From a virus: a DNA stretch of 23,282 nt. The notes beneath the pieces are model-generated. The model saw only the letters and a list, made by a program, of their open reading frames with translations. It was not told the origin of the DNA and searched no databases. The stretch is from positions 1 to 23,282 of IMG/VR virus record IMGVR_UViG_3300044951_000432; one strand, given 5' to 3'. A program made the translations under genes and the position numbers. The stretch's first letter is position 1, and every line of letters starts with the position of its first letter. Shown here piece after piece: positions 1 to 11,011 of the stretch.

Positions 1-200
1 TTGTACTCCTCCACGCGCTTGTTCAAACGCTCAATGCGGTTCACGTTGTAGTCCACGATTGACTGGGTGTACTCCACCGCAGTCTCTGCTTCTAGCTTAG
101 CCAAGTGGGCTTCTGCCAACTCGGTGGCGATCACCTCCAAGGGGCTGGGCTTGCGGAATGGGTCTTTGAATAGTTCACGTAGTCCTATGCGGCGCATCAT
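1..200 (-). CDS. Unknown phage protein, partial (C-terminus beyond left edge)
   Basis: The first 66 codons are visible, beginning MMRRIGLRELFKDPF and running off the left edge without a stop. The ATG at 198-200 has AGGAG five nt upstream on the minus strand and follows the stop of the preceding gene by 9 bp, so it is the next cistron of the leftward operon. A proline-containing N-terminus (KDPFRKPSP) is followed by a charged, heptad-like helix rich in Glu, Ala and Leu (IATELAEAHLAKLEAE), then a YNVNRIERLNKRVEEY segment, suggesting a coiled coil. I do not recognise the family and propose no function. Confidence 0.75.
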   Translation of the reverse strand, partial: MMRRIGLRELFKDPFRKPSPLEVIATELAEAHLAKLEAETAVEYTQSIVDYNVNRIERLNKRVEEY

Positions 201-209
201 GGTGTCTCC

Positions 210-665
210 TTACTTGAATAAGTTGTTGAGCGCATCGCGCAGTTCTTTGGCCTGATAAATGGTCAAGTTCTTGATGATGCGGTCTACGTCATAGTTGGTC
301 GTGATGATGGCTGTCCTTGGCGCGGGTGCCTCTACCTTGACCTTTGCAGGTTTCTTGTCCGCCATTACCCTGCGAAATTTGGCCTTGAGCGGCGTGTACT
401 CAGGGAAGTTGGCATACAGCATACCGCCCTCCTCACGTACCAAACGCTGCCTAATCATCTGCGAGATAAGGGTCGAGGTTGATGTAGCTTTGTACCCCAA
501 GGTTTCCAGCTTGGCCACTGCACCCCTGCGCATGATGCCGGGGTTGTCCCTGACCATATTGAACGTGCTGCGGGTCACGTTGTTGGTTGGTTGGAACCGT
601 TGCTTGCCCTTGGGTTCTTCCCATGCAGCAATTGCAGCTTCCAATTTTTCTTTAAGCAAGGTCAT
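210..665 (-). CDS. Putative winged-helix-like DNA-binding phage protein
   Basis: A 151-aa protein. A TTG lies five codons further upstream, but GGAG sits 9 nt before the ATG at 665, so the ATG is preferred. Residues about 25-95 have the rhythm of a winged-helix fold: helices in STFNMVRDNPGIMRRGAVAKLETLGY, then TSTLISQMIRQRLVREEGGMLYAN, where the last part resembles a beta wing. A basic, Pro/Ala-rich linker (KKPAKVKVEAPAP) leads to a C-terminal amphipathic helix (IYQAKELRDALNNLFK) that could mediate oligomerisation. The start overlaps the end of the 57-aa upstream gene. A regulatory role is inference from fold appearance only. Confidence 0.7.
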   Translation of the reverse strand: MTLLKEKLEAAIAAWEEPKGKQRFQPTNNVTRSTFNMVRDNPGIMRRGAVAKLETLGYKATSTSTLISQMIRQRLVREEGGMLYANFPEYTPLKAKFRRVMADKKPAKVKVEAPAPRTAIITTNYDVDRIIKNLTIYQAKELRDALNNLFK

Positions 666-825
666 CGAGTTGTTCTCCAAGTTCTATAAGTTCATTTTGC
701 AAATCTTCAATCTCACGTATGCGCATGTCCAGCCTTTCGGCCAGTAGCTCCAGTAGTTTGTCTTTCTTAAGTAGCATGTCTACTTCATGCAGTAACTCCC
801 TATCGGTCATGTTGTCAAAGATCAT
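652..825 (-). CDS. Small coiled-coil protein (57 aa)
   Basis: Reading the minus strand from ATG 825 gives a 57-residue ORF, MIFDNMTDREL...ELGEQLDDLA, ending at TAA 652-654. It is below common ORF-length cutoffs. It overlaps the end of the upstream gene (stop at 815-817) and the start of the downstream gene (665), the same coupled arrangement as its neighbours, which supports it being real. Nearly the whole sequence is a heptad-like helix (LLHEVDMLLKKDKLLELLAE, then IREIEDLQNELIELGEQL), so a homo- or hetero-oligomeric coiled coil is likely. No family is recognised. It could partner the winged-helix-like product of the next gene, but only proximity suggests that. Confidence 0.65.
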   Translation of the reverse strand: MIFDNMTDRELLHEVDMLLKKDKLLELLAERLDMRIREIEDLQNELIELGEQLDDLA

Positions 826-1063
826 GGCTAAACCTCACTAGGTTATTGTTGTCGTCCGTCTCAAACCACAGGATGTGTTTTGGTGGTTGGTTTCTGATAA
901 CGGGGAGCTTCCCCGCTACCCGTGCTACGTCTAATATGGTAAGTAACCAATCAGGACGCATATCTAACCGATATAAGGAAGTGAAAGGCTTAGACGCAAA
1001 CCTATCATATTCATACGCGGTCAGTCGAAACATGTCGTCCTGTTCTTCGTATCTATACTCCAT
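815..1063 (-). CDS. Unknown phage protein (82 aa)
   Basis: The likely start is the ATG at 1061-1063, preceded by GGGGA at five-nt spacing. A TTG five codons upstream (1078) is less likely. The protein begins MEYRYEEQDDMFRLTAYEYD, is rich in aromatic and charged residues, and ends DNNNLVRFSHDL. The pattern of short hydrophobic strands alternating with polar loops (RLDMRPDWLLTILDVARV, PPKHILWFETDD) suggests a small alpha/beta protein. It lies directly downstream of the HNH endonuclease gene and overlaps the following 57-aa gene by 11 bp. I do not recognise the family. Confidence 0.65.
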   Translation of the reverse strand: MEYRYEEQDDMFRLTAYEYDRFASKPFTSLYRLDMRPDWLLTILDVARVAGKLPVIRNQPPKHILWFETDDNNNLVRFSHDL

Positions 1064-1116
1064 CAGTTCCCCAATCAAAAAACATAAGATATCCCGACAT
1101 CCTTACGCGGCACTTA

Positions 1117-1599
1117 CTACAAATTTCCATGTGAATGCTTCTTTCTTTTTACGTTTGTATACACGGCGAACGCCTCGTCAGCACTACCAAAATATCCAAG
1201 GTGTGTAGGCTTACCCTGCACCCTAATTTGTGCCTGCCAGAGCTGCCTACCTTTATGCCAACTGACTCCTATGTAGGGGTTCCCCCCTTGCGGTGTTCGT
1301 CGGTTTTGTTGGTTCTCTTGGTTGGTTGCCAGCCGTAAGTTGGTTACGCGGTTGTCGTGCTTGATGCCGTTTATATGGTCAAGCATGTGCGGAGGCCAGC
1401 TACCGTACACATAGCACCATGCCAGCCTATGTGCTTGGTATAACTTCCGGTCAATTTTTATTTGCTGGTACCCCCGGTTATCAGACCCGGCACGGGTTCC
1501 TCCAACGCGGTTAGATACCGTATGCCGCCACGTAAAAATCCCCGTGGTAGAGTTGTAATCTAAGAGTTCCCGCAAGCGGGTAAAATCTAAAGTGCTCAT
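1117..1599 (-). CDS. HNH endonuclease with C-terminal AP2 domain (homing-type)
   Basis: A 160-aa protein with the layout of free-standing phage HNH homing endonucleases. Residues about 40-100 form the HNH motif: AHRLAW with His57, LDHINGIKHDN with Asp74-His75, then NRVTNLRLAT. Residues about 107-155 form an AP2/ERF-like DNA-binding domain (NPYIGVSWHKGRQLWQAQI, LGYFGSADEAFAVY). Such enzymes nick or cut DNA at a target site and spread their own gene. The gene has a private promoter (1668-1696) and a 5' hairpin (1634-1661), and AAGG lies 8 nt before the ATG. This resembles an inserted cassette rather than an ordinary cistron. Family assignment is confident; target and activity are unknown. Confidence 0.92.
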   Translation of the reverse strand: MSTLDFTRLRELLDYNSTTGIFTWRHTVSNRVGGTRAGSDNRGYQQIKIDRKLYQAHRLAWCYVYGSWPPHMLDHINGIKHDNRVTNLRLATNQENQQNRRTPQGGNPYIGVSWHKGRQLWQAQIRVQGKPTHLGYFGSADEAFAVYTNVKRKKHSHGNL

Positions 1600-1633
1600 C
1601 TGTCGTACCTTTCATACGATGGTTTGGGAAGTG

Positions 1634-1661
1634 ACGGCATGGGGCTGCAACCCTATGCCGT
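1634..1661 (-). promoter_or_regulatory. 5'-end hairpin of the HNH endonuclease mRNA
   Basis: ACGGCAT (1634-1640) pairs with ATGCCGT (1655-1661), and GGG/CCC pair inside, giving a stem of about 10 bp around a short loop. The hairpin begins 6 nt after the -10 box of the promoter at 1668-1696, so the transcript would start with it. No T-tract follows, so it is not an obvious terminator. An mRNA-stabilising or operator role is inference. Confidence 0.55.
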
Positions 1662-1667
1662 TGCGAT

Positions 1668-1696
1668 ATTATAGATTTACTCTGCGCCCCAATCAA
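1668..1696 (-). promoter_or_regulatory. Sigma70-type promoter for the HNH endonuclease gene
   Basis: On the minus strand TTGATT (1691-1696) and TATAAT (1668-1673) are separated by exactly 17 bp. The -10 is perfect consensus. The -35 lies inside the last codons of the upstream 293-aa gene. Transcription would start near 1661 and read into the endonuclease. The same -35, spacing and -10 occur upstream of the 10145-10693 gene. Confidence 0.7.
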
Positions 1697-2558
1697 ATGC
1701 AGACAGGATGTCATCAACTTTTTGTTTGACCAGTACACGAGTACCATCTTCCTCCCGCAACTCTTTCGGCGATACCCCGGATAGCACATCTTGTAATCGC
1801 CTACGTGCTTTCTCCAACTCAGGGTCGTTGGTCACGTTCATGGCGGTCAGCAAGTCACACAACTCCACGGCACCAGTCACCAAGGTATCGTGGAACTTAC
1901 GCTTCTCCCCGTCCTCCTCCACAGTCAGGCGGTCACTCAGCTTGGTCAGGGCACTGTGCAGCCGAGTCCATGAGTCCTGCGTAGCCGATGCCAACTGCTC
2001 ACCTAGCTTGCGCTCGTACTGCTCCATAAGTTCCCGCTGTACTTCGCTCTCAACATCTAACCGGAAGTCGCCCGATGTAGGTAGTGGGACAAACCCTATG
2101 TCCATTCGGAACCTACGCGCCACCTGAGTAGTGTCGGGGTACTCTTGGCGGTCAAACAACGTACCCAACTGGAACGCAGCAGCCGCCACCAGCGTGTCGT
2201 ACTTAGCAAGGAACGCATCGACCAGTAACTGAAACTCAGCTTGATACCGGTTCATCTCTGCCTTGTAGTCCAGCAGGGTCGCAGTGGGCAATAGCCTTGC
2301 GCCACGGTCATTCCACGGCAGGGTCAGGCGGTAGTGCTCAGCCCTAGCCCGTGCTTGGAACTTGGTGATAGCTTCCAACTCTCTGCACTCCGCAAACAGG
2401 TTCTTGTACACCGATGCAGCCTTAGATGAACCTGAGCCCTTGGCGGTAGTTACCTCGGCTTGCGTAGCCCTGTCCTGCTTACGTCCTGAGTAGGTTGAGA
2501 TGTTAAGGTCAACGAGCATAGCAGCCCGTGCAACACCAGCGATGTGTGTATTAGTCAT
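1677..2558 (-). CDS. Phage protein, possibly DUF3150-like, linked to MoxR/vWA module
   Basis: A 293-aa, largely helical, charged protein with no signal peptide or TM segment. Visible features are a polar N-terminus with GSGSSKAASVYKNLF, an aromatic patch LPWNDRGARLLPTATLLDYK (near residue 80), an alanine-rich helix around residue 125, and a long helical C-terminal half (ESEVQRELMEQYERKLGEQL; NDPELEKARRRLQDVLSGV). Size and texture recall DUF3150-type proteins, which in other mobile elements accompany a CobS/MoxR ATPase and a vWA protein; both are encoded 1.5-4 kb upstream in this operon. I could not verify the family. The ATG has GGAG 7 nt upstream, and a dyad repeat sits just before that site. 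Confidence 0.75.
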   Translation of the reverse strand: MTNTHIAGVARAAMLVDLNISTYSGRKQDRATQAEVTTAKGSGSSKAASVYKNLFAECRELEAITKFQARARAEHYRLTLPWNDRGARLLPTATLLDYKAEMNRYQAEFQLLVDAFLAKYDTLVAAAAFQLGTLFDRQEYPDTTQVARRFRMDIGFVPLPTSGDFRLDVESEVQRELMEQYERKLGEQLASATQDSWTRLHSALTKLSDRLTVEEDGEKRKFHDTLVTGAVELCDLLTAMNVTNDPELEKARRRLQDVLSGVSPKELREEDGTRVLVKQKVDDILSAFDWGAE

Positions 2559-2573
2559 GTTAATTCTCCAAAG

Positions 2574-2588
2574 TTCTAATGATTAGAA
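2574..2588. repeat. Dyad repeat copy 1 (TTCTAA-TGA-TTAGAA)
   Basis: A perfect 6+6 dyad located 15 bp before the ATG of the 293-aa gene, directly upstream of its GGAG. It separates that gene from the 2592-2846 gene. Confidence 0.85.
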
Positions 2589-2591
2589 GTT

Positions 2592-2846
2592 TCATTTGTT
2601 TATTCCTTGCGTGAATTTCAGCGTGTCATAGTAATCCTCGTTAACACACAGCACATTGAGCCAGCCGCGTGTTGGTACCTTCTTAATTACGTCTATGTAA
2701 TGCAAGGAATCCCCATGCGTACCTTGGTTAGCGCCTATGTACTTCTCCTCCATAAACTCGCAATCCGCTAGCACCGCACTTAGTTGTGCTAGTTGAGTAT
2801 CATCTAACAGTACTTTCTTATCGCTCACACTAATTGCATACTTCAT
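2592..2846 (-). CDS. Unknown phage protein (84 aa)
   Basis: The start is ATG 2844-2846, with AGGAG 7 nt upstream. A TTG 15 nt further out would include the ribosome binding site itself and is rejected. The protein begins MKYAISVSDKKVLLDDTQLA and ends YYDTLKFTQGINK. It is a compact alpha/beta-looking protein with strand-like ISVSDKKVLLD, a helix QLAQLSAVLADCEFMEEKY, and a strand pair around DSLHYIDVIKKVPTRGWLNV. Its start overlaps the end of the upstream gene by 17 bp, indicating translational coupling. No family is recognised. Confidence 0.75.
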   Translation of the reverse strand: MKYAISVSDKKVLLDDTQLAQLSAVLADCEFMEEKYIGANQGTHGDSLHYIDVIKKVPTRGWLNVLCVNEDYYDTLKFTQGINK

Positions 2847-3432
2847 CTTCGTTCTCCTCAAAAGTTATTTCATTACACTCACACGACTCGATAAACGATT
2901 CCTCGGATGTCAGGTGCTCATACGCGTCACGTAGCTCCCGGTACAACTTACGGCAACGCTCACTTACCCACTTCTGTATGGCATCCTCAAGGTTCGCCAT
3001 GTCGCATTGCTCCTCAACTAATTCATCCCATGCCTCACGGTCTAGGTGCTTGAATATCCCCGATGGGTAGGTGTTACCTACTACTGCATGCTCAAGGTTC
3101 ACACGAGCGTTCCCCCTATGGCTTGTAGATACAGTCGCGTACTCTCGGTAGTCATCCATTGCTACGTACAGCGCGGGATACTTAACGTCATACCCTTGGG
3201 CTTGCATCCACTCAACCACATCTATCTGCCCGTTGAAAGCAGCGTAGTCACTCTGCGAATACCCTAGGTTAAATTGGATGGTTTCTACCGTAATGCCATA
3301 CTCAGCGCAGTCAGCTTTCAAACCCTCTTGTACATACTCCCACCAGTCGTAATCAAGGGCATACTCGCGCCACTTGGCGTGCTCTTTCTCGAACCGCTCA
3401 GGGTCGTTAGCTTTCAATTCAAGTGCATTCAT
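2830..3432 (-). CDS. Phage protein of the 'WWE...GYSQSD' family (200 aa)
   Basis: Residues 29-62 carry a DWWEYV helix, an acidic helix (QEGLKADCAEYGI) and the strand motif IQFNLGYSQSDYAAFNGQI. This matches a widespread but uncharacterised phage family I recognise by its WWE-x(n)-GxxSQGDGACF-type signature. The C-terminus is very acidic (IESCECNEITFEENEDEVCN). The ATG overlaps the upstream stop (ATGA), and GGAG is 8 nt upstream. A DNA-mimic or anti-defence function would fit the acidity but is speculation. Calculated charge appears strongly negative by eye. Confidence 0.75.
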   Translation of the reverse strand: MNALELKANDPERFEKEHAKWREYALDYDWWEYVQEGLKADCAEYGITVETIQFNLGYSQSDYAAFNGQIDVVEWMQAQGYDVKYPALYVAMDDYREYATVSTSHRGNARVNLEHAVVGNTYPSGIFKHLDREAWDELVEEQCDMANLEDAIQKWVSERCRKLYRELRDAYEHLTSEESFIESCECNEITFEENEDEVCN

Positions 3433-3656
3433 TCTGCGTTCTCCTTAATGTGGTACACAGTTATCAATCCATCAAACGCTTCCTTAGCTTCTGCCTTAGT
3501 GCGAAAGATGTTGTTAAAGAATACGTCCAAGCCCAATGGGCCACGGACGCTCGGGCTAATGGATAGCATCCACCCATCGTTGAATGGTTGTAACCAGCAC
3601 ATGACCCCGAACTCGGGGTGGTGATACACAGAATCCTCAATCCACTCGCCTTTCAT
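3429..3656 (-). CDS. Unknown small phage protein (75 aa)
   Basis: A 75-aa product beginning MKGEWIEDSVYHHPEFGVMC. It is rich in aromatic residues and looks like a small beta-sheet followed by a helix (FRTKAEAKEAFDGLITVYHIK). The pattern of strand-strand then TKAEAKEAFDGL recalls small single-domain phage proteins with a beta-beta-beta-alpha core. It overlaps both neighbours by ATGA junctions (start at 3656, stop at 3429-3431), a strong sign that it is translated. No family name can be given. Confidence 0.72.
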   Translation of the reverse strand: MKGEWIEDSVYHHPEFGVMCWLQPFNDGWMLSISPSVRGPLGLDVFFNNIFRTKAEAKEAFDGLITVYHIKENAE

Positions 3657-4048
3657 CGGTGTCCCCTAACTATTGCTGTTTGCGTACCTAAGTAATACTC
3701 GCCAGTCATTGACTGATGGTGGTCAATATCGCCCGAATCCTCGCCCACACGTATAAATTCGATGGCGATACCTTCAAACTCATCGGCTTCAATTCGGTCA
3801 CGCATATCTTCAAAGGCCTTAACCTCGACGTAATCCCCATACCATTTCACATCAGGTATGTCGAACTCCAATATGCACCCCTCGTCAATCCACTCCATTA
3901 ACGAACCCCACTCTTTCACCACATCCTTGAACGTAGTAGCCATGAGAGTTTTAAGTAACGCATACTTCTCTTCTCTGTTTACGCTTTCCCCAGTAAGTAA
4001 ACGATTAGCTGGATAGATGATGCACACAACATCACTGCGGTTGCCCAT
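3653..4048 (-). CDS. Unknown phage protein (131 aa)
   Basis: A 131-aa acidic protein beginning MGNRSDVVCIIYPANRLLTG. A helical segment (EEKYALLKTLMATTFKDVVKEW) is followed by strand-like stretches (CILEFDIPDVKWYGDYVEV; GIAIEFIRVGED) and a C-terminal IDHHQSMTGEYYLGTQTAIV. The paired histidines and acidic residues could bind metal, but no known motif is complete. GGAGG lies inside the end of the upstream vWA gene, 6 nt before the ATG, so its translation is coupled to that gene. No family is recognised. Confidence 0.7.
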   Translation of the reverse strand: MGNRSDVVCIIYPANRLLTGESVNREEKYALLKTLMATTFKDVVKEWGSLMEWIDEGCILEFDIPDVKWYGDYVEVKAFEDMRDRIEADEFEGIAIEFIRVGEDSGDIDHHQSMTGEYYLGTQTAIVRGHR

Positions 4049-4049
4049 G

Positions 4050-5210
4050 TCACACCTCCAATTGAATAGTCGTACCGAACGGCGCTTTGATATCGGATGT
4101 CACCGCCCACAATGTAGGCACATCACTACGCCCCCAGTCACCTACGTAGCCATCGGTAAACTGCACGATGGCCTGCGGAGTAATGCGCTTCTTGCGTAAG
4201 TAGTTGAACAACACAGCACCATCGGTGCCGCCACCGCCCTTGGGCTTGAGGTCTTGCACAGCGAACTGCCCATCCTCGAACGTCTGATGCCCTGCCACTG
4301 CCGTGTCCCAATAGATAACGTGAACCTTATGCGGCTTGACATCACTGATGATGGTCGTTATCTCGGACACGAACCTAGTCATCTCATCACCACCGAAGCA
4401 CGAGCCCGATGTGTCGAACCCAATGACCAACTCGCTCATGGTGGTGCCCAGCATGGTAGGCATGTAGATGTCCTCGCTGATGAACCTACGGTTAGGCCGA
4501 GCCCACGACGACTCATCACGTCCGCTGCACGTCTCTTGCACAAACTCACGCAACGCCTTGCGCCAGTCAATCTTGGGTGCGAGTAAGTCACCGAACACAC
4601 CATCCGAACCATCGGCACCCTCTTTGGACAGACGCTTACGCAGCATCTCGCCTTGACGTATGGCACGTTGAATCTCGTTGGCTTGCTCTTGCTCAGCAGC
4701 AGGGTCGTTATTAGCTGCGTTACCCTCCCAGTCATGGTCGTCCATGCTGCCGCCACCGCTGCCGTTCTCAGGGTCTTTCATGAGGTCATTGAATATCTGC
4801 AACACCGACCAGCCACGATACTCAGGCTTAGGTTGGATGCCACTCTTGCTCGGCATCTCGATAAAGCCCTCACCGTCATCGGTGTCCACCAGTGCGCCGT
4901 TGACAAAGTAGTCAGCCGCCACGTTAGCTAGCTGGGCATTGATGTTGTGCAATGACTTCCACACAGCCATGTGCCGATACGCTTTGTGTGTCGCCTCGTG
5001 CAGTACAAGAAACCGCAACTCAGGGTCGGTAGGCATGTTCGCTTCGATGAAGTCAGGGTTGTACAAAACGTCCCACCCATCGGTAGCTGCGGTAGGTACT
5101 GATGTAGTCACCTCGACTTTGCCACACGCAATCACACCGCTGTACGCACAGAACTTCTTGTGCTGCATGATGGCGATGTGTGCTTTCTTGATACGGTTAC
5201 TTACGTCCAT
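4050..5210 (-). CDS. DUF2201-like zinc metallopeptidase fused to a vWA domain
   Basis: A 386-aa protein with two recognisable halves. The N-terminal domain has the zinc-metallopeptidase signature HEATH at residues 71-75, followed by NVAADYFVNGAL (97-108), where Asp100 is a plausible further ligand. A Gly/Asp-rich acidic linker (about 145-175) and a helical segment lead to a C-terminal von Willebrand A domain: MIDAS DTSGS at 266-270, GGGTD at 326-330 and FTDG at 351-354. This matches the vWA-like metallopeptidase (DUF2201) proteins that work with MoxR-type ATPases; the AAA+ partner is encoded just upstream (5584-6645). Substrate is unknown. GGAG lies 7 nt before the ATG, with a dyad repeat immediately before it. 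Confidence 0.9.
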   Translation of the reverse strand: MDVSNRIKKAHIAIMQHKKFCAYSGVIACGKVEVTTSVPTAATDGWDVLYNPDFIEANMPTDPELRFLVLHEATHKAYRHMAVWKSLHNINAQLANVAADYFVNGALVDTDDGEGFIEMPSKSGIQPKPEYRGWSVLQIFNDLMKDPENGSGGGSMDDHDWEGNAANNDPAAEQEQANEIQRAIRQGEMLRKRLSKEGADGSDGVFGDLLAPKIDWRKALREFVQETCSGRDESSWARPNRRFISEDIYMPTMLGTTMSELVIGFDTSGSCFGGDEMTRFVSEITTIISDVKPHKVHVIYWDTAVAGHQTFEDGQFAVQDLKPKGGGGTDGAVLFNYLRKKRITPQAIVQFTDGYVGDWGRSDVPTLWAVTSDIKAPFGTTIQLEV

Positions 5211-5225
5211 GTTTTTTCTCCAAAG

Positions 5226-5240
5226 TTCTAAGGGTTAGAA
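5226..5240. repeat. Dyad repeat copy 2 (TTCTAA-GGG-TTAGAA)
   Basis: Located 15 bp before the ATG of the metallopeptidase/vWA gene, the same distance as copy 1 to its gene. The sequence from repeat to GGAG (minus strand AGAACTTTGGAGAA) is the same in copies 1 and 2. Confidence 0.85.
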
Positions 5241-5270
5241 GTTTCAAGTAGTTGTTGGGTTTGTGTGCAG

Positions 5271-5320
5271 CCCCGATACGTCCGGGGTGCCAGTCTTTAT
5301 GTAAGCGCACAATCGTGCGC
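5271..5320 (-). promoter_or_regulatory. Two intercistronic hairpins between the 85-aa-region gene and vWA gene
   Basis: CCCCG (5271-5275) pairs with CGGGG (5283-5287), and GCGCAC (5305-5310) pairs with GTGCGC (5315-5320) across a 4-nt loop. They occupy the 113-bp gap between two leftward genes. No T-tract follows on the minus strand, so they look like processing or stability hairpins rather than a complete terminator. Confidence 0.4.
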
Positions 5321-5323
5321 CCG

Positions 5324-5575
5324 TCACTTGTGCGTTCCGTTATCAACATCAAAATACTCCTCTTGTTGTTTCATGATTGCCATGGCCGCGTCGGAGAACG
5401 TCTGCGTCACCTCCAGCAGTTGCTTCAGGTCTGTCTGTGCTTGCGTAAGAATGCCGAACGACTGCATGTAAGCCATGTCCCTCATGATGGCCTTGATGAT
5501 GTTAGGTTTTGTGAGCATGGTTTTGCGCACCACCTCTATGGCTTCGCGTTCGGCGATTGTGTATTTGGTTGTCAT
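5324..5575 (-). CDS. Unknown helical protein between MoxR and vWA genes (83 aa)
   Basis: Two in-frame ATGs exist. AAGG is 6 nt from the ATG at 5575 but abuts the one at 5581, so 5575 is chosen. The product begins MTTKYTIAEREAIEVVRKTM and is almost entirely helical, with methionine-rich amphipathic stretches (IIKAIMRDMAYMQSFGILTQ) and an acidic C-terminus (QQEEYFDVDNGTHK). Its position between the AAA+ and vWA genes suggests an adaptor or accessory subunit of that module; only context supports this. No family is recognised. Confidence 0.7.
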   Translation of the reverse strand: MTTKYTIAEREAIEVVRKTMLTKPNIIKAIMRDMAYMQSFGILTQAQTDLKQLLEVTQTFSDAAMAIMKQQEEYFDVDNGTHK

Positions 5576-5583
5576 AGTCATCC

Positions 5584-6645
5584 TTAGAAGAACTTACCGA
5601 GCTTGGCGGCGGCAGTAGTAAACGAACGGTTACGGCATGCCATACCTACCTTGGCGTTATTGGTAGCCAGCGACATAACGAACAGCGCATGCGCCTCGAA
5701 CGACTCCGCACTCATACGATGGGCATACTCCATCACCGCGTCCATCGTGTCCTCGGTCACTTTGCCAGCCAGCATGAAGGCCATGAGGAACAGAGCCCCG
5801 GCAGTCTTGGGCACCTTGGTCGTGCTAGGTGATAGGCATATAGCCTTGAACGATGGCAACTGGTCAGCCATGTTGATAATCGCGTCCATCTGCCGAGCCG
5901 CCGACTCACCGATAGTGCCCGCCAGTGCAGGCAGGGTAGCATCCCCTAGCACCGCACGTTGACTGATGATGTTGCCCGCCTTGACCAGCGAACGGGGCGA
6001 ACAGAATGCCTTAGTGTTGCCAGTCATTGGGTTGAAGATGTACGGGTTCTTGGTCTTGGCATCGAGGTCGGTGTAGCAGTCGAATATCTCAGGCGTCTGA
6101 TGTGCAAACGCCATAATCTCAGGCGCTACGTTGTTACCCGCAGCCCATTGCAGCCACTCTTCGGAAGTAGGGTTAGCCATTGTTACCACGGTCATACGAT
6201 TGAACGCATGTGCAGGGATGTTGTCGCCCACGCCATCGGTATCTAGGTTAGTAGTACCGAACACAATCGAACCCTTGGGTAACTTAACGTCACCGATGCG
6301 ATGCTCTAACACAACCGGCAGCAGCATGTTCATGACAGGGCGGGACGCTTTACCTAGTTCGTCAAGCATAAGCACGACAGGCTTGGTCTGATTCTTACTG
6401 ACACCGAAGCGCACGTTGGGTGCGTAGCTAGTGGTCATGGTCTCACGGTCAATGACCGGCATTCCAAGGTCGCCGAGGTCTAGGTTAGCTACGTCGATAT
6501 AGCAGAAGTGATGGGTAGGCAGGGATGAACGCAGGGATTTGAATACATCGGACTTGCCGATGCCGGGTTGCCCCCGCAGCAGGATGGTGTTGTTAGCACC
6601 GATGGACTGAATGAGCGTAGCGGATTGAGAATGATTGACTTTCAT
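5584..6645 (-). CDS. MoxR/CobS-like AAA+ ATPase
   Basis: A 353-aa AAA+ protein. Walker A is GQPGIGKS (25-32), Walker B is VVLMLDEL (90-97), sensor-1-like GTTN lies at 130-133 and a candidate arginine finger is in AHAFNRM (Arg150). The spacing and the NLDLGDLGMP segment after the first strand fit the MoxR/CobS clade. These ATPases remodel or insert metals into protein partners together with vWA proteins (CobS-CobT, RavA-ViaA, MoxR-vWA pairs). A vWA/metallopeptidase follows after one small gene. AGGA is 6 nt before the ATG, and a dyad repeat lies upstream. The phage substrate is unknown. Confidence 0.92.
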   Translation of the reverse strand: MKVNHSQSATLIQSIGANNTILLRGQPGIGKSDVFKSLRSSLPTHHFCYIDVANLDLGDLGMPVIDRETMTTSYAPNVRFGVSKNQTKPVVLMLDELGKASRPVMNMLLPVVLEHRIGDVKLPKGSIVFGTTNLDTDGVGDNIPAHAFNRMTVVTMANPTSEEWLQWAAGNNVAPEIMAFAHQTPEIFDCYTDLDAKTKNPYIFNPMTGNTKAFCSPRSLVKAGNIISQRAVLGDATLPALAGTIGESAARQMDAIINMADQLPSFKAICLSPSTTKVPKTAGALFLMAFMLAGKVTEDTMDAVMEYAHRMSAESFEAHALFVMSLATNNAKVGMACRNRSFTTAAAKLGKFF

Positions 6646-6670
6646 GATGTGTCCTAAAAATAAATAGAAG

Positions 6671-6685
6671 TTCTAAGGGTTAGAA
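6671..6685. repeat. Dyad repeat copy 3 (TTCTAA-GGG-TTAGAA)
   Basis: Lies in the 64-bp gap before the AAA+ ATPase gene, 25 bp from its ATG. Confidence 0.85.
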
Positions 6686-6709
6686 GTTTGAGAGGATAAA
6701 TGGTATGGC

Positions 6710-7468
6710 TTACTTGATGCTTACTACCTCCGTGCTTACTGTGTTGTACATACTGCGTTTGCAGTCGGACATGATGCGTGACCAGCAGGTTTGGGCGCTG
6801 CCTACCTCTACCCATCCCCGTTTACCCCCAATACCTAACCACCGCTGTTCGTACTTGTACTTGGCGATGATGTGGGGCCAGTCTGCGGCATGCTCGGGGT
6901 CTGTCAGGATGTCACTTAATCTGCGGTGCTGGACTACGAGAACAAGTCTGTAAGTTGGCTGCACCGTGGCGTACAACAACTTGAACATGTCCTTGAACCC
7001 CGATGCCTCGACTGCATCCATGAATTCTTTGGACTCTGCCTTGTCGATACGCCGCGCCTCGAACGGGCGCAACGGGGTGATGACCTTGCCCTCGCCGTCC
7101 ATCGTAATCCCATCATAGTACTTGACCATGGTGCCATATCGGGTGCGCAGCACCGTCTGACTCAGGCTCATGATGCTACGGTTAAACACCGAGTAGTGGA
7201 ACGGCATAAACAATGCCGCGTCCCGCAGTGCCATCGCAGTGGTGGACTTTGCTACCCACCCGTTGCAATCAATCATCACGCGCCCATCGGGGTAAGCCCG
7301 CACAATGTCCGTGTTGTGGAATCTGATAGCCATGAATTGACTGCGCTGCACTACGCGGTGATGGCTACGTCCGCGCTTTGACTTGTCGGCAGGGGCATCG
7401 CCCTTGTATTGCCCACGAGTGTATTGGTGGGTGTCTAAGTGGTATTCGAGTTTGTCATACGTGTTCAT
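6710..7468 (-). CDS. Unknown phage protein (252 aa)
   Basis: A 252-aa basic protein beginning MNTYDKLEYHLDTHQYTRGQ. A basic, low-complexity stretch (DKSKRGRSHHRVVQRSQ, about 29-45) precedes a beta-rich segment IRFHNTDIVRAYPDGRVMIDC (48-68), then NGWVAKSTTAMALRDA and mixed alpha/beta sequence; the C-terminus is MYNTVSTEVVSIK. The FHNTDIVxxxxDGxVxIxxxGW strand pattern is one I associate with a recurring uncharacterised phage/plasmid family, but I have no name for it. AAGGA precedes the ATG, and a dyad repeat lies 28 bp upstream. A nucleic-acid-associated role is inferred only from its basic character. Confidence 0.75.
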   Translation of the reverse strand: MNTYDKLEYHLDTHQYTRGQYKGDAPADKSKRGRSHHRVVQRSQFMAIRFHNTDIVRAYPDGRVMIDCNGWVAKSTTAMALRDAALFMPFHYSVFNRSIMSLSQTVLRTRYGTMVKYYDGITMDGEGKVITPLRPFEARRIDKAESKEFMDAVEASGFKDMFKLLYATVQPTYRLVLVVQHRRLSDILTDPEHAADWPHIIAKYKYEQRWLGIGGKRGWVEVGSAQTCWSRIMSDCKRSMYNTVSTEVVSIK

Positions 7469-7496
7469 AATGTTTCCTTAATTGTCTACACAAATG

Positions 7497-7511
7497 TTCT
7501 AATGGTTAGAG
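7497..7511. repeat. Dyad repeat copy 4 (TTCTAA-TGG-TTAGAG)
   Basis: One mismatch in the last base. It lies between the stop of the 65-aa gene and the start of the 252-aa gene. Confidence 0.8.
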
Positions 7512-7513
7512 GT

Positions 7514-7711
7514 TTAGCCTTCACGGCTCGGTTGGTCTAGTTCATACGGCAGTTCGTATATGTCACTGAGCGTCCAGTCGGCAACGCCGTCAGATACCGA
7601 CCCGCTCTCAACCCTCTCCCATGCTAGGGTCTCGGCTTGCTCGGGCGTGTCAGCTTCAATGGTCAGGTCAACATACGATAGGCGCTTGAGTTCTACGATA
7701 TAGGTTGTCAT
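7514..7711 (-). CDS. Unknown small protein (65 aa)
   Basis: The frame is open further upstream, but ATG 7709-7711 has AGGA 7 nt before it and overlaps the stop of the upstream HTH gene (ATGA). It is therefore the supported start. The 65-aa product starts MTTYIVELKRLSYVDLTIEA, with DTPEQAETLAWERVESGSV and an acidic C-terminal half. The strand-helix pattern (YIVELKRLSYVDLTIEADTPEQAETLAWE) matches small phage proteins with a betaalpha 'T-x-x-A-x-E-x-A' module. No named family or function can be given. Confidence 0.7.
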   Translation of the reverse strand: MTTYIVELKRLSYVDLTIEADTPEQAETLAWERVESGSVSDGVADWTLSDIYELPYELDQPSREG

Positions 7712-7842
7712 TTCAGCTTCCTTAACCAGCGGCGTATCGTGCTGGGGTGTTTCTTTGCTTGACGGGCAATCTCTTTGACTGGTACTCCCGCAGAATGAAG
7801 GTTGTGTACCGCTAATAGGGCACATATTTTTTCATAGGTCAT
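7708..7842 (-). CDS. Minimal helix-turn-helix protein (44 aa)
   Basis: The ATG at 7840-7842 overlaps the upstream stop (ATGA), with AGAGGA 9 nt upstream. The 44-residue product MTYEKICALLAVHNLHSAGV... ends with PVKEIARQAKKHPSTIRRWL and RKLK. The segment EIARQAKKHPSTIRRWLRKLK is a good helix-turn-helix of the resolvase/Homeodomain-like type, with a basic recognition helix. The protein is little more than one DNA-binding unit. It could be a transcription factor and is a candidate reader of the nine dyad repeats, but that link is inference. Start choice is supported by the overlap at both ends. Confidence 0.72.
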   Translation of the reverse strand: MTYEKICALLAVHNLHSAGVPVKEIARQAKKHPSTIRRWLRKLK

Positions 7843-8207
7843 GATGTCAGTTCCTCTGGTACATCTACCTCGACACCCAGCTCGCTGGCAACGTAGCATC
7901 GCATTGCTGCGATAAGGGGTGTTTGCCCCCCACTTAAATAACCCTGCCAATGCCCGTCGCCTTTTCTGGCTTGCCACGTATCTTCCCAATCCTCGCCGAT
8001 ATGAATAACCGTGATTCCTTCGCGCTCAATAATCGGCCCGCCTTGTGCCCAGTCGGTTGATGGTGTGTAAACCGTGCCAAGACTGGAAGGGTGAACTTTT
8101 AGCTGCCCACGGTATATTTGCAAATTCCCACCGTGAATGGCTAGCAACCCCTCGCACTTCGCCACCGCCCAATCAAGAGCGGTTCCTGTTAGTTCATTGG
8201 TTTTCAT
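7839..8207 (-). CDS. DUF2591 (NinX-like) phage protein, copy 2
   Basis: A 122-aa protein beginning MKTNELTGTALDWAVAKCEG, the hallmark N-terminus of DUF2591 proteins found in many phages and prophages. The family signature STDWAQGGPIIEREGI lies mid-protein, and the C-terminal TPLIAAMRCYVASELGVEVDVP is also typical. Length is usual for the family, whose function is unknown. It overlaps the upstream paralogue by 4 bp (ATGA) and is a tandem duplicate of it; the two share the N- and C-terminal blocks but differ in the middle. Confidence 0.9.
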   Translation of the reverse strand: MKTNELTGTALDWAVAKCEGLLAIHGGNLQIYRGQLKVHPSSLGTVYTPSTDWAQGGPIIEREGITVIHIGEDWEDTWQARKGDGHWQGYLSGGQTPLIAAMRCYVASELGVEVDVPEELTS

Positions 8208-8563
8208 TTCAGTCCTTCAGGTAGTTCTACGTTATCCCCGAGCTTGCTGGCTACGTAGCAGCGCATAGCTGCGATCAGGGGTGTGGGGCCGCTTACCATG
8301 TGGCGCGGTTCATCATCGTAGTTTTGTTTTGTCCACGACAACCATACGCCTGCGGAATCAATGTCAAGGCACAGCTTCTCCCGCTCAATGATTGACCCAC
8401 CTTGTGACCAGTCGGTTGAGTAGTTCGCAGGTGCGCCAAAATCGTTGGCGTCTACGACTAGTAGTGAGCCGCCGTAACCTTCCCTGACATTCATACCCGC
8501 TTCTTTCTCACACTTCGCTACTGCCCAATCAAGAGCGGCTCCGGTTAGTTCATTTGTTTTCAT
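8204..8563 (-). CDS. DUF2591 (NinX-like) phage protein, copy 1
   Basis: A 119-aa paralogue of the next gene. It begins MKTNELTGAALDWAVAKCEK, with STDWSQGGSIIEREKLCLDI in the middle and TPLIAAMRCYVASKLGDNVE near the end. The central segment (residues about 22-50 and 75-92) is diverged from copy 2, suggesting that the two variable parts have different partners. The ATG at 8563 overlaps the end of the upstream membrane-protein gene by 14 bp. Family recognition is firm; the molecular role is not known for any member that I can name. Confidence 0.9.
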   Translation of the reverse strand: MKTNELTGAALDWAVAKCEKEAGMNVREGYGGSLLVVDANDFGAPANYSTDWSQGGSIIEREKLCLDIDSAGVWLSWTKQNYDDEPRHMVSGPTPLIAAMRCYVASKLGDNVELPEGLK

Positions 8564-8744
8564 GGTAGTTTCCTTGGTTTAAATAAATAGTCACGATGTA
8601 CCCTGCACACATCCCGCCCCATATCAGGGCTAGATTGAACAGCCAGCCTTCTTGGCCCCAGCCCACCATGATGGATACTGCGGCGCACACGGCAATGGCT
8701 ATGTCTGCAAGGGTTTGGGATTTGGTTGTCTGATACTCGGTCAT
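8550..8744 (-). CDS. Small two-TM membrane protein (64 aa)
   Basis: A 64-aa protein beginning MTEYQTTKSQTLADIAIAVC. Two hydrophobic helices are visible at about 11-30 (TLADIAIAVCAAVSIMVGWG) and 34-55 (WLFNLALIWGGMCAGYIVTI), separated by a short polar turn, with a polar C-terminus (NQGNYHENK). It is the first gene of the leftward operon after the structured leader, with AAGGA 7 nt before the ATG and a dyad repeat just upstream. It could be an inner-membrane protein or holin-like, but position in the early-type arm makes a lysis role doubtful. Confidence 0.75.
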   Translation of the reverse strand: MTEYQTTKSQTLADIAIAVCAAVSIMVGWGQEGWLFNLALIWGGMCAGYIVTIYLNQGNYHENK

Positions 8745-8758
8745 ATAGTTTCCTTAAG

Positions 8759-8773
8759 TTCTAATGGTTAGAA
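8759..8773. repeat. Dyad repeat copy 5 (TTCTAA-TGG-TTAGAA)
   Basis: A perfect dyad 14 bp before the ATG of the two-TM protein. It marks the 3' boundary of the structured leader on the minus strand. Confidence 0.85.
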
Positions 8774-9233
8774 GATAGCGGCTGCTATCGAATAGGGCAC
8801 AGAATGCCCTATACGCTAGGCCCTCTGGTATTGAGGGCTGTTGCCCCAGCTAGGTGCTGGTGGACTACGATAGGGTTTGTCGTTCACGCTTATTCCCCGT
8901 GAGGGGTTCGTGTTCCTAGTGCGGTATCAATCGTCGTCTTATGTGCCCCCGTATATGTAAGTGGTAGGCGTTGTCCGACCCGATACTCTCCGCACGTTAG
9001 GGTTCGCAGGGGATTAGCCTGAGAAGCCCGCCCATTTAAGTAGTTAACGTCTGTATTGCATGCAGCTATCGCCCACCTGACCTCGGCCTATGGGGCTACA
9101 CCGTTGCATGCAGGGACTGGCTACCCTACGCCTATTCACTCAGGGAGATATCGCAAAGCCTGCCTCAGGTCTCATTCCTTCTATGTAGTTTCCGGTCGCA
9201 ATGACCAGCGGCGGTTTGTTTGAGTCCGATAAG
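8774..9233 (-). ncRNA. Candidate long structured leader RNA (about 460 nt)
   Basis: No supportable ORF lies here. The segment is dense in inverted repeats: GATAGC/GCTATC (8774-8789), an 8-bp stem 8792-8812, GCCCTC/GAGGGC (8820-8838), CCAGC/GCTGG (8846-8860), CCCC-GTGA-GGGG (8895-8906) inside CACG/CGTG (8885-8912), a long-range stem GTGCGG+TATC with GATA+CCGCAC (8919-8928 with 8982-8995), TGCATGCA with itself (9057-9064 with 9105-9112), and GGTC/GACC (9194-9206). It is bounded by dyad repeats at 8759 and 9234 and lies downstream of a strong leftward promoter and a boxA. I infer minus-strand transcription. It is reminiscent of large ornate phage RNAs (GOLLD, ROOL), but I could not match it to either. 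Confidence 0.5.
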
Positions 9234-9248
9234 TTCTAATGGTTAGAA
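9234..9248. repeat. Dyad repeat copy 6, extended (9-bp arms)
   Basis: TTCTAA-TGG-TTAGAA, with the dyad extending three bases each side to 9231-9251 (AAG/CTT), making it the most perfect copy. It marks the 5' boundary of the structured leader. Confidence 0.85.
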
Positions 9249-9273
9249 CTTACCAAACATAGCCAATAAATTT

Positions 9274-9283
9274 TTAAAGAGCA
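9274..9283 (-). promoter_or_regulatory. boxA-like antitermination motif (TGCTCTTTAA)
   Basis: On the minus strand TGCTCTTTAA is followed by AAATTTATTGG, closely matching the boxA region of proteobacterial rRNA leaders (TGCTCTTTAACAATTTAT in E. coli). It lies about 55 nt downstream of the predicted start of the leftward transcript. NusB/S10 binding and antitermination through the long untranslated leader is inference from rrn and nut-site biology. Confidence 0.65.
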
Positions 9284-9342
9284 GGCACCGAATGTAGGTA
9301 GGGGGTTGCCGTGATTGGAGCGATATCCAAGTCGAGGGGTCT

Positions 9343-9371
9343 ATTCTAGCAGATTGCAGGGGGTTTGTCAA
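9343..9371 (-). promoter_or_regulatory. Strong sigma70 promoter for the leftward operon
   Basis: On the minus strand TTGACA (9366-9371, perfect consensus) and TAGAAT (9343-9348) are separated by 17 bp. The predicted start is near 9336, reading into boxA, the structured leader and then the gene at 8744. The GTAAC array begins 62 bp upstream. Confidence 0.8.
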
Positions 9372-9700
9372 GTGTTTAGATAACTAATTCTGGAGCGTTT
9401 TAGGGGTAATAACCATGATGGTGGTAGGGTTTGTTACGCATGTTACAAGGAAATGGGGCTTGTTACAAAAATGGCTGTAACGGGAATCGCCTTATAAATC
9501 AACGACTTAGAATTTGGAAAATTGCTTGTTACGGCTGTTACGGGGTTTTAGGGTATAAACGCCCCCATCCGCCCTAATATGTCCGCGAATCACCAAAACG
9601 GTGCATTTTCATCGCTCCATATTTAGTTTTCTGTAAGTGGGTGCGGACAGATTGAATTTTTGAAAAAAGGCCTAAAAAGCCTGTAACACCTGTAACAACA

Positions 9701-9734
9701 ATAAAATATATATATTATATCTCTCTCTCTCTCT
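9701..9734. repeat. AT-rich tract followed by (TC)n repeat
   Basis: An almost pure A/T run (9701-9720) is followed by CT dinucleotides to 9734, in the middle of the GTAAC array. It is a plausible duplex-unwinding element. It also contains a leftward TATAAT (9714-9719) without a convincing -35. Confidence 0.6.
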
Positions 9735-9846
9735 GTAACTCATTGATTTGTATAGGCACTTGCATGCATTCCTTGTTACAAGCAGTTTTGTAACATGTCA
9801 AGTATTTTTGTAACACGTGTAACAAACCCTACTGCCATCATGGTAA

Positions 9847-9861
9847 TTCTAATTGTTAGAA
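9847..9861. repeat. Dyad repeat copy 7 (TTCTAA-TTG-TTAGAA)
   Basis: A perfect 6+6 dyad embedded between GTAAC boxes at 9819 and 9870, far from any gene start. Confidence 0.85.
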
Positions 9862-9943
9862 GTTTGCCTGTAACAAGTTTCGTAACACGCGTAACAAGTT
9901 TTGTAACCAGCCCCGCCCGCGCGGCAACTATGACGCGCCAATG

Positions 9944-9958
9944 TTCTAATCGTTAGAA
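9944..9958. repeat. Dyad repeat copy 8 (TTCTAA-TCG-TTAGAA)
   Basis: A perfect 6+6 dyad 37 bp beyond the last GTAAC box and 97 bp from copy 7. Confidence 0.85.
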
Positions 9959-10007
9959 GTTTCGTCGCCACGAAGGGTTCCCCCTGCCAGCCCCGCCCGA
10001 TGCCCTC

Positions 10008-10047
10008 GCTCGCCCGCTCGCCCGCTCGCCCGCTCGCCCGCTCGCCC
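10008..10047. repeat. Five tandem copies of GCTCGCCC
   Basis: Five perfect 8-bp units in a non-coding stretch between the last dyad repeat of the array and the terminator of the 10145-10693 gene. The tract is C-rich on one strand and G-rich on the other. It may be simple slippage or a binding array. Confidence 0.9.
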
Positions 10048-10102
10048 GCAGTCGCACTACTATGACGCCATCCGCACGGATAGTGCGGAAATCAACGGGC
10101 GC

Positions 10103-10125
10103 AAAAAAGCCCGCCGAAGCGGGCT
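10103..10125 (-). terminator. Rho-independent terminator of the 182-aa gene
   Basis: On the minus strand a 7-bp stem AGCCCGC/GCGGGCT closes a TTCG loop (10108-10125) and is followed by TTTTTT (10103-10108). It lies 20 bp past the stop codon of the leftward 182-aa gene and would separate that gene from the control region and leftward operon. Confidence 0.9.
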
Positions 10126-10144
10126 CGATGGTAAGGGTAAACCC

Positions 10145-10693
10145 TTATTCGATTTCTTTGAAGGCATCCAATGATTCAATACACTGGTCAAGCACGCATG
10201 CCGCAAATTCAGTCAACCCAAGCAAACGGGCTTGTTTGATAGCCTTGGACAATGTTTTATCTAATTCGGCGCGTGTAGTGCTTTCCACTTTTCCGGCCTT
10301 GGGGGTTGCAGTGGCTTTGCTCGCGCCTTCGGCTTTTTTGGTAGCGGCTTTTTCGTTTATCAAACTGCGCGAGAATGGCACGCCATTTTCAAACGCAAGC
10401 CAAAAGCAGGATTGATACTGCGCAGCGGATTTTGCCTTGATGTAGTCCTTTTCTACCAAGGCCGCGAACAATTCGGCTATCTGCGCACGCGCAGGGTTTG
10501 AACGGGCATTACCCTTTAAGAATTCGGCCTTAGGTTTATCGGCATTAACAACCATGGTATCTAATACCAATTGAACGGCTTTGTCCTGAATAGCGATAAT
10601 TTTCGCACCGGTAGTAACGGCAAGGTTATGGGCTTTGCCGAATGCTGCAATAGTAGCGGCAGAAATGTCCGAAGGGATAAATACGGTTTTCAT
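10145..10693 (-). CDS. Unknown protein encoded as an isolated unit in the control region (182 aa)
   Basis: A 182-aa, Ala/Lys-rich protein beginning MKTVFIPSDISAATIAAFGK. An N-terminal alpha/beta segment (to about residue 55) is followed by a basic helical part (AEFLKGNARSNPARAQIAEL), an Ala/Lys/Thr-rich linker (about 113-138) and a C-terminal helical bundle (ELDKTLSKAIKQARLLGLTE; CVLDQCIESLDAFKEIE). It has its own promoter (10734-10762), a 5'-terminal dyad (10711-10728), operator-like dyads in and above the promoter, and its own terminator. That layout is common for autoregulated regulators or replication/partition initiators. No HTH or known family is visible, so the role is inferred from context only. 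Confidence 0.8.
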   Translation of the reverse strand: MKTVFIPSDISAATIAAFGKAHNLAVTTGAKIIAIQDKAVQLVLDTMVVNADKPKAEFLKGNARSNPARAQIAELFAALVEKDYIKAKSAAQYQSCFWLAFENGVPFSRSLINEKAATKKAEGASKATATPKAGKVESTTRAELDKTLSKAIKQARLLGLTEFAACVLDQCIESLDAFKEIE

Positions 10694-10710
10694 TTTGAGC
10701 TTTCATTAAG

Positions 10711-10728
10711 TATGGCGAATTTGCCATA
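10711..10728 (-). promoter_or_regulatory. Dyad at the 5' end of the 182-aa gene mRNA
   Basis: TATGGC (10711-10716) and GCCATA (10723-10728) flank GAATTT. The dyad starts 5 nt after the -10 box, exactly at the expected transcription start. It could be an operator or a 5' mRNA hairpin, and it parallels the hairpin of the HNH gene. Confidence 0.5.
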
Positions 10729-10733
10729 GCCCG

Positions 10734-10762
10734 ATTATATCTATTCCATTAGAATTAATCAA
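10734..10762 (-). promoter_or_regulatory. Sigma70 promoter of the 182-aa gene, with operator-like half site in spacer
   Basis: On the minus strand TTGATT (10757-10762) and TATAAT (10734-10739) are separated by 17 bp. The spacer contains TTCTAATGG, the left half of the dyad repeat, followed by a degenerate right half (AATAGA). A full dyad (copy 9) lies immediately upstream of the -35, as expected for repressor or activator control. Confidence 0.78.
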
Positions 10763-10764
10763 AC

Positions 10765-10779
10765 GTCTAACCATTAGAC
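10765..10779. repeat. Dyad repeat copy 9, inverted (GTCTAA-CCA-TTAGAC)
   Basis: The only copy with the central trinucleotide in the opposite orientation (TGG on the minus strand), and with a C/G pair replaced symmetrically in both arms (CGTCTAA/TTAGACG, 10764-10780). The compensating change keeps the dyad intact. It abuts the -35 of the promoter at 10734-10762. Confidence 0.8.
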
Positions 10780-10780
10780 G

Positions 10781-11011
10781 CCAGCCCCGCTGACCCACCC
10801 CATCCCCACCCGCCCAATCTGTAATGGGACTCCGCCGTGCGCTATTACACTGAGTGATCGACAAACGAACCACAATCCCACAGAAACTACTGTATGCCTA
10901 TACAGTACCCCCACCCCCCTCAAAATAGGAGACCCCCCGGTACAAAAATAAAAGCCTACCCCCAAAAAATATCGCATATACTCCGCCCAACTTAGGCTGC
11001 GTCAACTCGCC
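10781..11011. other. Non-coding control region before the packaging genes
   Basis: A C-rich stretch with no supportable gene. It holds the LexA-type box at 10888-10907 and a TATACT hexamer at 10977-10982, which could be a rightward -10 giving a leader of about 22 nt. No good -35 is found at the right spacing, so the rightward promoter may need an activator or lie further upstream. Confidence 0.5.
10888..10907. promoter_or_regulatory. LexA-type SOS box (TACTGTATGCCTATACAGTA)
   Basis: CTGT-N8-ACAG with extended flanks. It matches the E. coli LexA consensus TACTGTATATATATACAGTA at 17 of 20 positions, the differences being three central bases. It lies about 105 bp before the first packaging gene and about 195 bp above the divergent 182-aa gene. 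Which transcript it controls is unresolved. Confidence 0.7.

Follow-up and report, generated by a model that had tools for sequence, protein, structure and literature searches.

A conserved structured RNA without an Rfam counterpart at the head of a phage leftward operon

We conclude with high confidence that the minus strand of window positions 8774-9342 encodes a conserved structured RNA whose class is not represented in Rfam. The window is the whole stretch of DNA analysed, the 23,282-base linear virus record IMGVR_UViG_3300044951_000432, a tailed-phage contig. An initial annotation had suggested that a segment at 8774-9233 may be a large structured RNA. Strong covariation, about 50 distinct homologues in IMG/VR and the lack of a coding frame bear out the suggestion, but the 5' limit does not hold: the element reaches to about 9336 and takes in a hairpin and an rrn-like boxA.

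Genomic setting of the RNA

Leftward genes fill window positions 1-8744. They include genes for NinX-like proteins and the following:

4050-5210, leftward: gene for a DUF2201 metallopeptidase/VWA protein
5584-6645, leftward: gene for an AAA ATPase
8550-8744, minus strand: first gene of the leftward operon, its start codon 49 nt past the terminal hairpin of the RNA

The non-coding stretch extends from 8745 to about 10144; beyond it lie a single leftward gene and then the rightward packaging and head genes (terminase, portal, capsid). The closest cultured terminases, from Pelagibacter phage HTVC023P, lake phage DSL-LC04 and Planktothrix phage Pag-Yong1, are about 40% identical. The operon behind the leader promoter is about 20 kb long and has a single strong promoter, and the RNA would form the first ~560 nt of its predicted transcript (~380-730 nt in relatives).

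No convincing ORF was found in 8745-9343, and the longest open frame in the 50 members of the RNA family was 60 codons, compared with 64 in shuffled sequence, so the segment is without an ORF, as had been claimed. tRNA genes were found neither in the window nor in 15 relative loci.

Two further gene arrangements were observed. The genes at 7839-8207 and 8204-8563 are tandem paralogues, the second matching P22 NinX (Pfam PF10765); in L061 and L071, NinX-type gene copies likewise lie close to the ATPase. An HNH-type ORF at 1117-1599, located between two conserved genes, has a 47% identical copy in a comparable position in L005 and is missing in L003; it is probably a mobile homing endonuclease.

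Homologues in a single phage clade

Relatives were gathered by protein and DNA-pattern scans of IMG/VR. A profile built from the first four sequences detected the element in 82 loci, and the final profile in 108 loci at E<1e-5; 50 distinct sequences were obtained. The homologues hold the same genomic place as the window RNA. Among relatives with at least 4 kb of upstream sequence, the RNA was present in 44 of the 44 whose ATPase is at least 60% identical, and in one of the eight loci whose ATPase falls below 60%. In the 61- and 68-kb relatives, it occupies one of only two non-coding gaps longer than 350 nt and adjoins the promoter at the start of the rightward operon.

A nucleotide search of cultured phages gave no match, and the relatives identified by terminase (HTVC023P, DSL-LC04 and Pag-Yong1) had no match to the RNA. 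Scans for core motifs beyond the clade returned clade members plus one single-motif match (L391), apparently by chance. Genomic matches to the pattern CCGYCGCTG..CAGAAGC likewise look like chance among the matches listed, with a best nhmmer E above 0.1.

Covariation supports a conserved fold

Minimum free energy (MFE) folding of the single sequence gave z = -1.47 for the minus strand, with 10 of 100 shuffles as good, and z = -0.09 for the plus strand. The stems named in the initial annotation do exist in the sequence, but since the MFE is not significant, some ten stems in one sequence are weak evidence; with folding energy this unremarkable, the case could be decided only with homologues.

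Covariation was assessed with our own R-scape-like implementation, which uses a G statistic with average-product correction, receives no structure, and takes as its null alignments simulated on a FastTree phylogeny. In a MAFFT alignment of the 50 sequences, 27 column pairs were obtained at E<1, 21 of them Watson-Crick or GU, and the canonical covarying pairs build helices that are nested and extend over 178 nt. A second alignment, of 46 sequences and independently anchored, yielded nine pairs at E<0.05, eight of them canonical. Covariation among homologues, the check by which the initial annotation had said the idea should be judged, is thus significant, and hidden coding was not found.

Controls with a preset structure agreed. 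In the P4/P5 domain, 90.7% of cells were paired; shuffles gave 73.5%, and slid controls never more than 45%. For this domain and for hairpin 1, no shuffle or slid control equalled the helix counts. The covariance model R1, built from the P4/P5 domain, scored 97.5 bits in the window and recovered members on which it had not been trained (L074 at 5e-13, L149 at 2e-13, L126 at 1e-9 and L132 at 3e-5); in the cultured phages and the relatives with ATPases below 60% identity that were searched, it matched nothing except L144. These results come from our own program, automatic alignments and a single phage clade, and alignment quality is lowest in the 3' quarter, with several odd pairs at 8811-8821.

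Promoter, 5' hairpins and boxA

The 5' part of the element comprises:

9371-9343, minus strand: promoter TTGACA-17-TAGAAT with extended -10, by sequence
9330-9326/9319-9315, minus strand: stem of hairpin 1, loop UAUCGC, 12-13 nt past the -10 box
9284..9310, minus strand: hairpin 2 (GGCA/UGCC), kept in most members, without a separate covariation test
9273..9283, minus strand: boxA, by sequence; GCTCTTTAAA at 9282-9273, given as UGCUCUUUAAA over the full interval

The strong promoter and the boxA that had been placed ahead of the element are both present in the sequence, and the order is promoter, hairpin 1, hairpin 2 (in most members), boxA, palindromic dyad, core and first gene. Within window positions 1-11000, the promoter is the only sigma-70-like site with 11 of 12 matches, and transcription is expected, from its position, to start near 9336. 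Of the extracted homologues, all except three have a TTGAC/TATAAT-type promoter immediately 5' of the RNA, and one of these promoters, in the 61-kb relative G001, is a perfect TTGACA-17-TATAAT.

Hairpin 1 had 86.7% of cells paired versus 68.5% in shuffles (0/500 as good) and at most 56% in slid controls, with a covariation of 0.661 versus 0.335 in shuffles; its pair 9326-9319 was recovered by the covariation test without preset structure. Hairpin 2 is missing in L098, L099, L113, L120 and L150. A pseudoknot between the hairpin 1 loop and GUUA in the region downstream of boxA, drawn by eye, was rejected because its covariation was inconsistent.

The extended boxA element of the window is identical to the Escherichia coli rrnB leader boxA region at 18 of 21 positions, and those of L101 and L118 at 20 of 21; shuffled controls averaged 11.0 with a maximum of 15. 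A boxA close to the promoter, one of the features of an rrn-type antitermination leader, is present here.

Helices and modules of the core

The core and the 3' end contain the following elements, all on the minus strand:

9210..9213: P1 5' strand CGCC, pairing with GGCG 9132-9129 (consensus CGYC/GRCG, E<0.03)
9129..9132: P1 3' strand GGCG, by covariation
9208-9203/9197-9192: hairpin P2, CUGGUC/GACCGG, with the motif CCGYCG before it
9189-9187/9140-9138: P3, ACU with AGU, enclosing a variable insert (9186-9141)
9127-9124/9115-9112: hairpin P4, 100% of cells paired, double changes in three of four pairs
9111-9105/9064-9058: P5, closing the domain 9058..9111, 91% of cells paired
9096-9093/9074-9071 and 9088-9086/9081-9079: inner helices of the P5 domain
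9031..9044: P6 5' side, with ACUAC (9044-9040), the conserved internal-loop strand UUAAAU and GGG (9033-9031)
8864..8875: P6 3' side, with CCC (8875-8873), conserved UAUC (8872-8869) and GUAGU (8868-8864)
8912-8909/8888-8885: stem-loop P7, CACG/CGUG, with inner CCCC/GGGG (8906-8903/8898-8895), by covariation
~8914..9030: virus-specific insert, largely missing in L003 and replaced by a different module in L015/L055
8792..8812: terminal hairpin AUAGGGCA/UGCCCUAU, with covarying pairs 8808-8796 and 8811-8793 and no U-run after it
8774..8789: last small hairpin, GAUAGC/GCUAUC, by sequence; also in relatives

The strongest covariation lies in P2 (pair 9205-9195, score 82.8). In P1, pair 9211-9131 is C-G in 33 of the 50 members and U-A in the other 17, while P3 pair 9187-9140 is C-G in 35 and U-A in 8. 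P5 carries double changes in six of eight pairs; this is the helix that had been proposed as a long-range closure of 9057-9064 with 9105-9112, and it proves real, covarying and among the best supported. The 8-bp local stem noted earlier is 8812-8805/8799-8792 of the terminal hairpin, and it covaries. The P4 loop base 9116 covaries with 9215 (GC/AU, canonical in 50 of 50) and is a candidate tertiary pair. Two non-canonical pairs also covary, 9100-9068 (UU/AA) in the P5 domain and 8908-8889 (GA/AG) in P7, and suggest ordered internal loops with conserved non-Watson-Crick motifs.

P6 joins strands that are 178 nt apart in the window and ~80-180 nt apart among members, and it is fully paired in most of the 50. 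Its stem occurs as ACUAC/GUAGU, AGUGC/GCACU, CUAGG/CCUAG, UGUAC/GUACA and GGUGC/GCACC, around an internal loop, YUAAMU/UAUC, that is nearly invariant across these variants. With these stem swaps around a near-invariant loop, P6 is the most telling of the helices. The likeness of the CUAAAU/UAUC loop to the 11-nt tetraloop-receptor-like motif is a resemblance only.

The other long-range closure proposed, 8919-8928 with 8982-8995, is a good stem (GUGCGG-AGA-GUAUC/GAUACCGCAC); it lies inside the insert absent from relatives and thus outside the reach of covariation. Core length varies between 307 and 677 nt (median 466) through the insertion or exchange of whole helices. The build of the RNA is modular, with peripheral modules present in some members and absent from others. 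In L098, L099, L113 and L120, the members cited above as lacking hairpin 2 apart from L150, an extra module of more than 100 nt (TTAGTGTCCAGTTCATACAAGAGTTGG...) was observed at the variable insertion point; in L099 it lies at about 2400-2600.

At the 3' end, a spacer of usually 20-70 nt separates the terminal hairpin from the start of the first gene, and unrelated small ORFs hold its place in other members. No TTTTT was found between RNA and first gene in any member scanned, and hence no sign of a terminator there.

Comparison with known RNAs

Rfam 15 gave no match to the window even at E<=5. In four relatives nothing relevant was found, the only hit being a sub-threshold isrD match outside the RNA. 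The check proposed against GOLLD, ROOL, OLE, HEARO and group I/II introns has accordingly been carried through without a match to any family model, and the suggestion of a new class stands, with a fold supported by covariation.

GOLLD and ROOL are frequently located at tRNA islands and form homo-oligomeric RNA cages. The leader RNA resembles them in being a large phage-encoded, elaborate fold with variable peripheral parts (PMC12286853), but it matches neither by sequence nor by covariance model, does not lie at a tRNA island, has a boxA leader, and is the 5' leader of an early operon and not an independent unit with its own terminator. The initial comparison with these RNAs is therefore apt for size and elaborateness but fails for setting, sequence and structure. 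OLE RNA, which is co-transcribed with neighbouring genes, is likewise a large structured bacterial RNA; the phage RNA has no Rfam match, and hosts and setting differ.

The closest known system in layout is the rRNA operon leader. In the E. coli leader (P2, boxB hairpin, boxA, boxC), as here, a hairpin and then boxA follow soon after a sigma-70 promoter (PMC10250234), the boxA region is up to 20/21 identical, and a large untranslated structured RNA comes next. The phage RNA differs in that it is not rRNA, is followed by protein genes and lacks a general leader-trailer helix: complementarity of at least 10 nt between own flanks occurred in 15 of 50 members (21 of 500 mismatched partners), and such a processing helix was rejected as a general feature. 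On rRNA, boxA is necessary and sufficient for Nus/SuhB recruitment and the untranslated RNA is shielded from Rho (PMC10250234, PMC4807359). The put RNA of phage HK022, ~70 nt long, carries a pair of stem-loops immediately 3' of PL and exerts its effect across at least 10 kb (PMC9378689). In layout, the phage leader of most members similarly places two stem-loops right behind an early promoter, with no apparent phage protein partner; it differs in adding a boxA and a 300-680 nt core, and in that its hairpin 1 is conserved whereas hairpin 2 is missing in several members.

Proposed role and alternatives

We lean toward the explanation that a phage early-operon transcript begins with a large structured RNA of a new class. 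Host sigma-70 RNA polymerase would start this transcript early in infection; boxA would, by analogy with rRNA, recruit the NusB/NusE (SuhB) complex of the host; and the complex would keep Rho from halting polymerase along a lengthy transcript that is untranslated and carries no ribosomes. The core would fold during synthesis and function by itself at the RNA level, perhaps once cleaved out of the mRNA, and that same modified polymerase would meanwhile continue into the ~20-kb operon. The use of Nus factors and boxA is extrapolated from E. coli, as the host is unidentified. It seems to us rather probable that the locus works through this large conserved fold, as its product or active part, because the fold is unneeded for boxA function and the downstream genes differ; a core too large and modular for antitermination by boxA alone, together with unrelated first genes, counts for the same reading. 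Against it, no transcript has been seen, and a purely cis-acting leader would likewise show no terminator or processing site.

Such a leader is the main rival: an RNA that binds the elongating polymerase for processive antitermination, like HK022 put or the EAR and rrn leaders, so that the whole RNA, or hairpins 1 and 2 with boxA and core, lets one promoter serve the ~20-kb operon. The constant position directly behind a strong promoter, the 5' hairpins and boxA, the lack of a terminator ahead of the first gene and the long operon with a single strong promoter all fit, and put shows that ~70 nt with two stem-loops can act over at least 10 kb (PMC9378689). We nevertheless consider it unlikely, if still a serious contender: hairpin 2 is dispensable (L098, L099, L113, L120, L150), and 300-680 nt of extra conserved fold with invariant internal loops would remain unexplained. 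Put, nut and rrn elements are shorter than about 150 nt. Whether the locus makes an RNA product under rRNA-type antitermination or an operon-wide antitermination leader is a matter of inference and remains unresolved.

A 5' UTR position 20-70 nt from the start codon would also suit a riboswitch, or an RNA that regulates translation of the first gene. We regard this as very unlikely: the gene in first place is not related from one member to the next, no terminator or other expression platform exists, and known riboswitches are far smaller. That no RNA is involved, the hairpins being due to chance, a hidden gene or a DNA element (origin, operators), draws on the MFE z of only -1.47 and on the adjoining palindromic dyads and iteron-like repeats; it is highly improbable, since helices whose strands lie up to 178 nt apart show compensatory changes, GU is tolerated and no open frame exists, and the dyads, which may be DNA sites, lie outside the core. 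Hardest of all to sustain is a divergent member of GOLLD, ROOL, OLE, HEARO or the group I/II introns: size and elaborateness are similar and the phage setting recalls GOLLD and ROOL (PMC12286853), but Rfam gave no match in the window at gathering or at E<=5 and none relevant in four relatives, and no tRNA lies nearby.

Returning to the RNA-product reading, we suggest only tentatively its boldest form: the phage would commandeer the host's rRNA antitermination machinery to make a giant RNA that is processed and acts in trans. The locus would then be to the phage what an rRNA transcription unit is to the cell, with the RNA reaching high levels early in infection and acting as an RNA machine, a scaffold or a host/defence-modifying RNA. 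To our knowledge, very few RNAs of such size and intricacy have been described in phages, and what they do is an open question. The present family is deeply conserved in its clade (44/44) and has a clear expression logic, a strong promoter with an rRNA-type boxA; with dozens of homologues offering a testable fold, conserved internal-loop motifs and exchangeable modules, the role of giant phage RNAs, and why they are made under antitermination, becomes directly testable.

Dyads and upstream repeats

The dyads that the initial annotation described as flanking the element, 8755-8773 and 9230-9248, are indeed identical, but they do not mark its boundary, as the window has at least nine copies, mostly just before gene starts. 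The 5' dyad and the other copies of its palindrome are:

9230..9248, minus strand: 5' dyad TTCTAACCATTAGAA with flanks, one of ~10 window copies
2574-2588, 5226-5240, 6671-6685, 7497-7511, 8759-8773, 9234-9248, 9847-9861, 9944-9958 and 10765-10779: copies of TTCTAAYNRTTAGAA

The palindrome TTCTAAYNRTTAGAA, present in about ten window copies (11 matches at <=3 mismatches versus 2.1 expected), mostly lies 15-30 nt ahead of leftward gene starts. Relatives carry different palindromes in equivalent places (GTTATAACCTTATAAC, GTCTTAAGCTTAAGAC), and TTCTAAYNRTTAGAA therefore looks like a phage-type-specific operator/stoperator or a hairpin 5' of the ribosome-binding site.

The stretch 9400-9920, which lies upstream of the promoter of the leader, contains iteron-like (T)GTTAC(A) repeats, and a 74-nt imperfect inverted repeat pairs 9408-9481 with 9775-9848; the region 9400-9920 is a possible replication origin or control region. 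Farther along, CGCTCGCC forms a tandem 8-bp repeat at 10007-10057.
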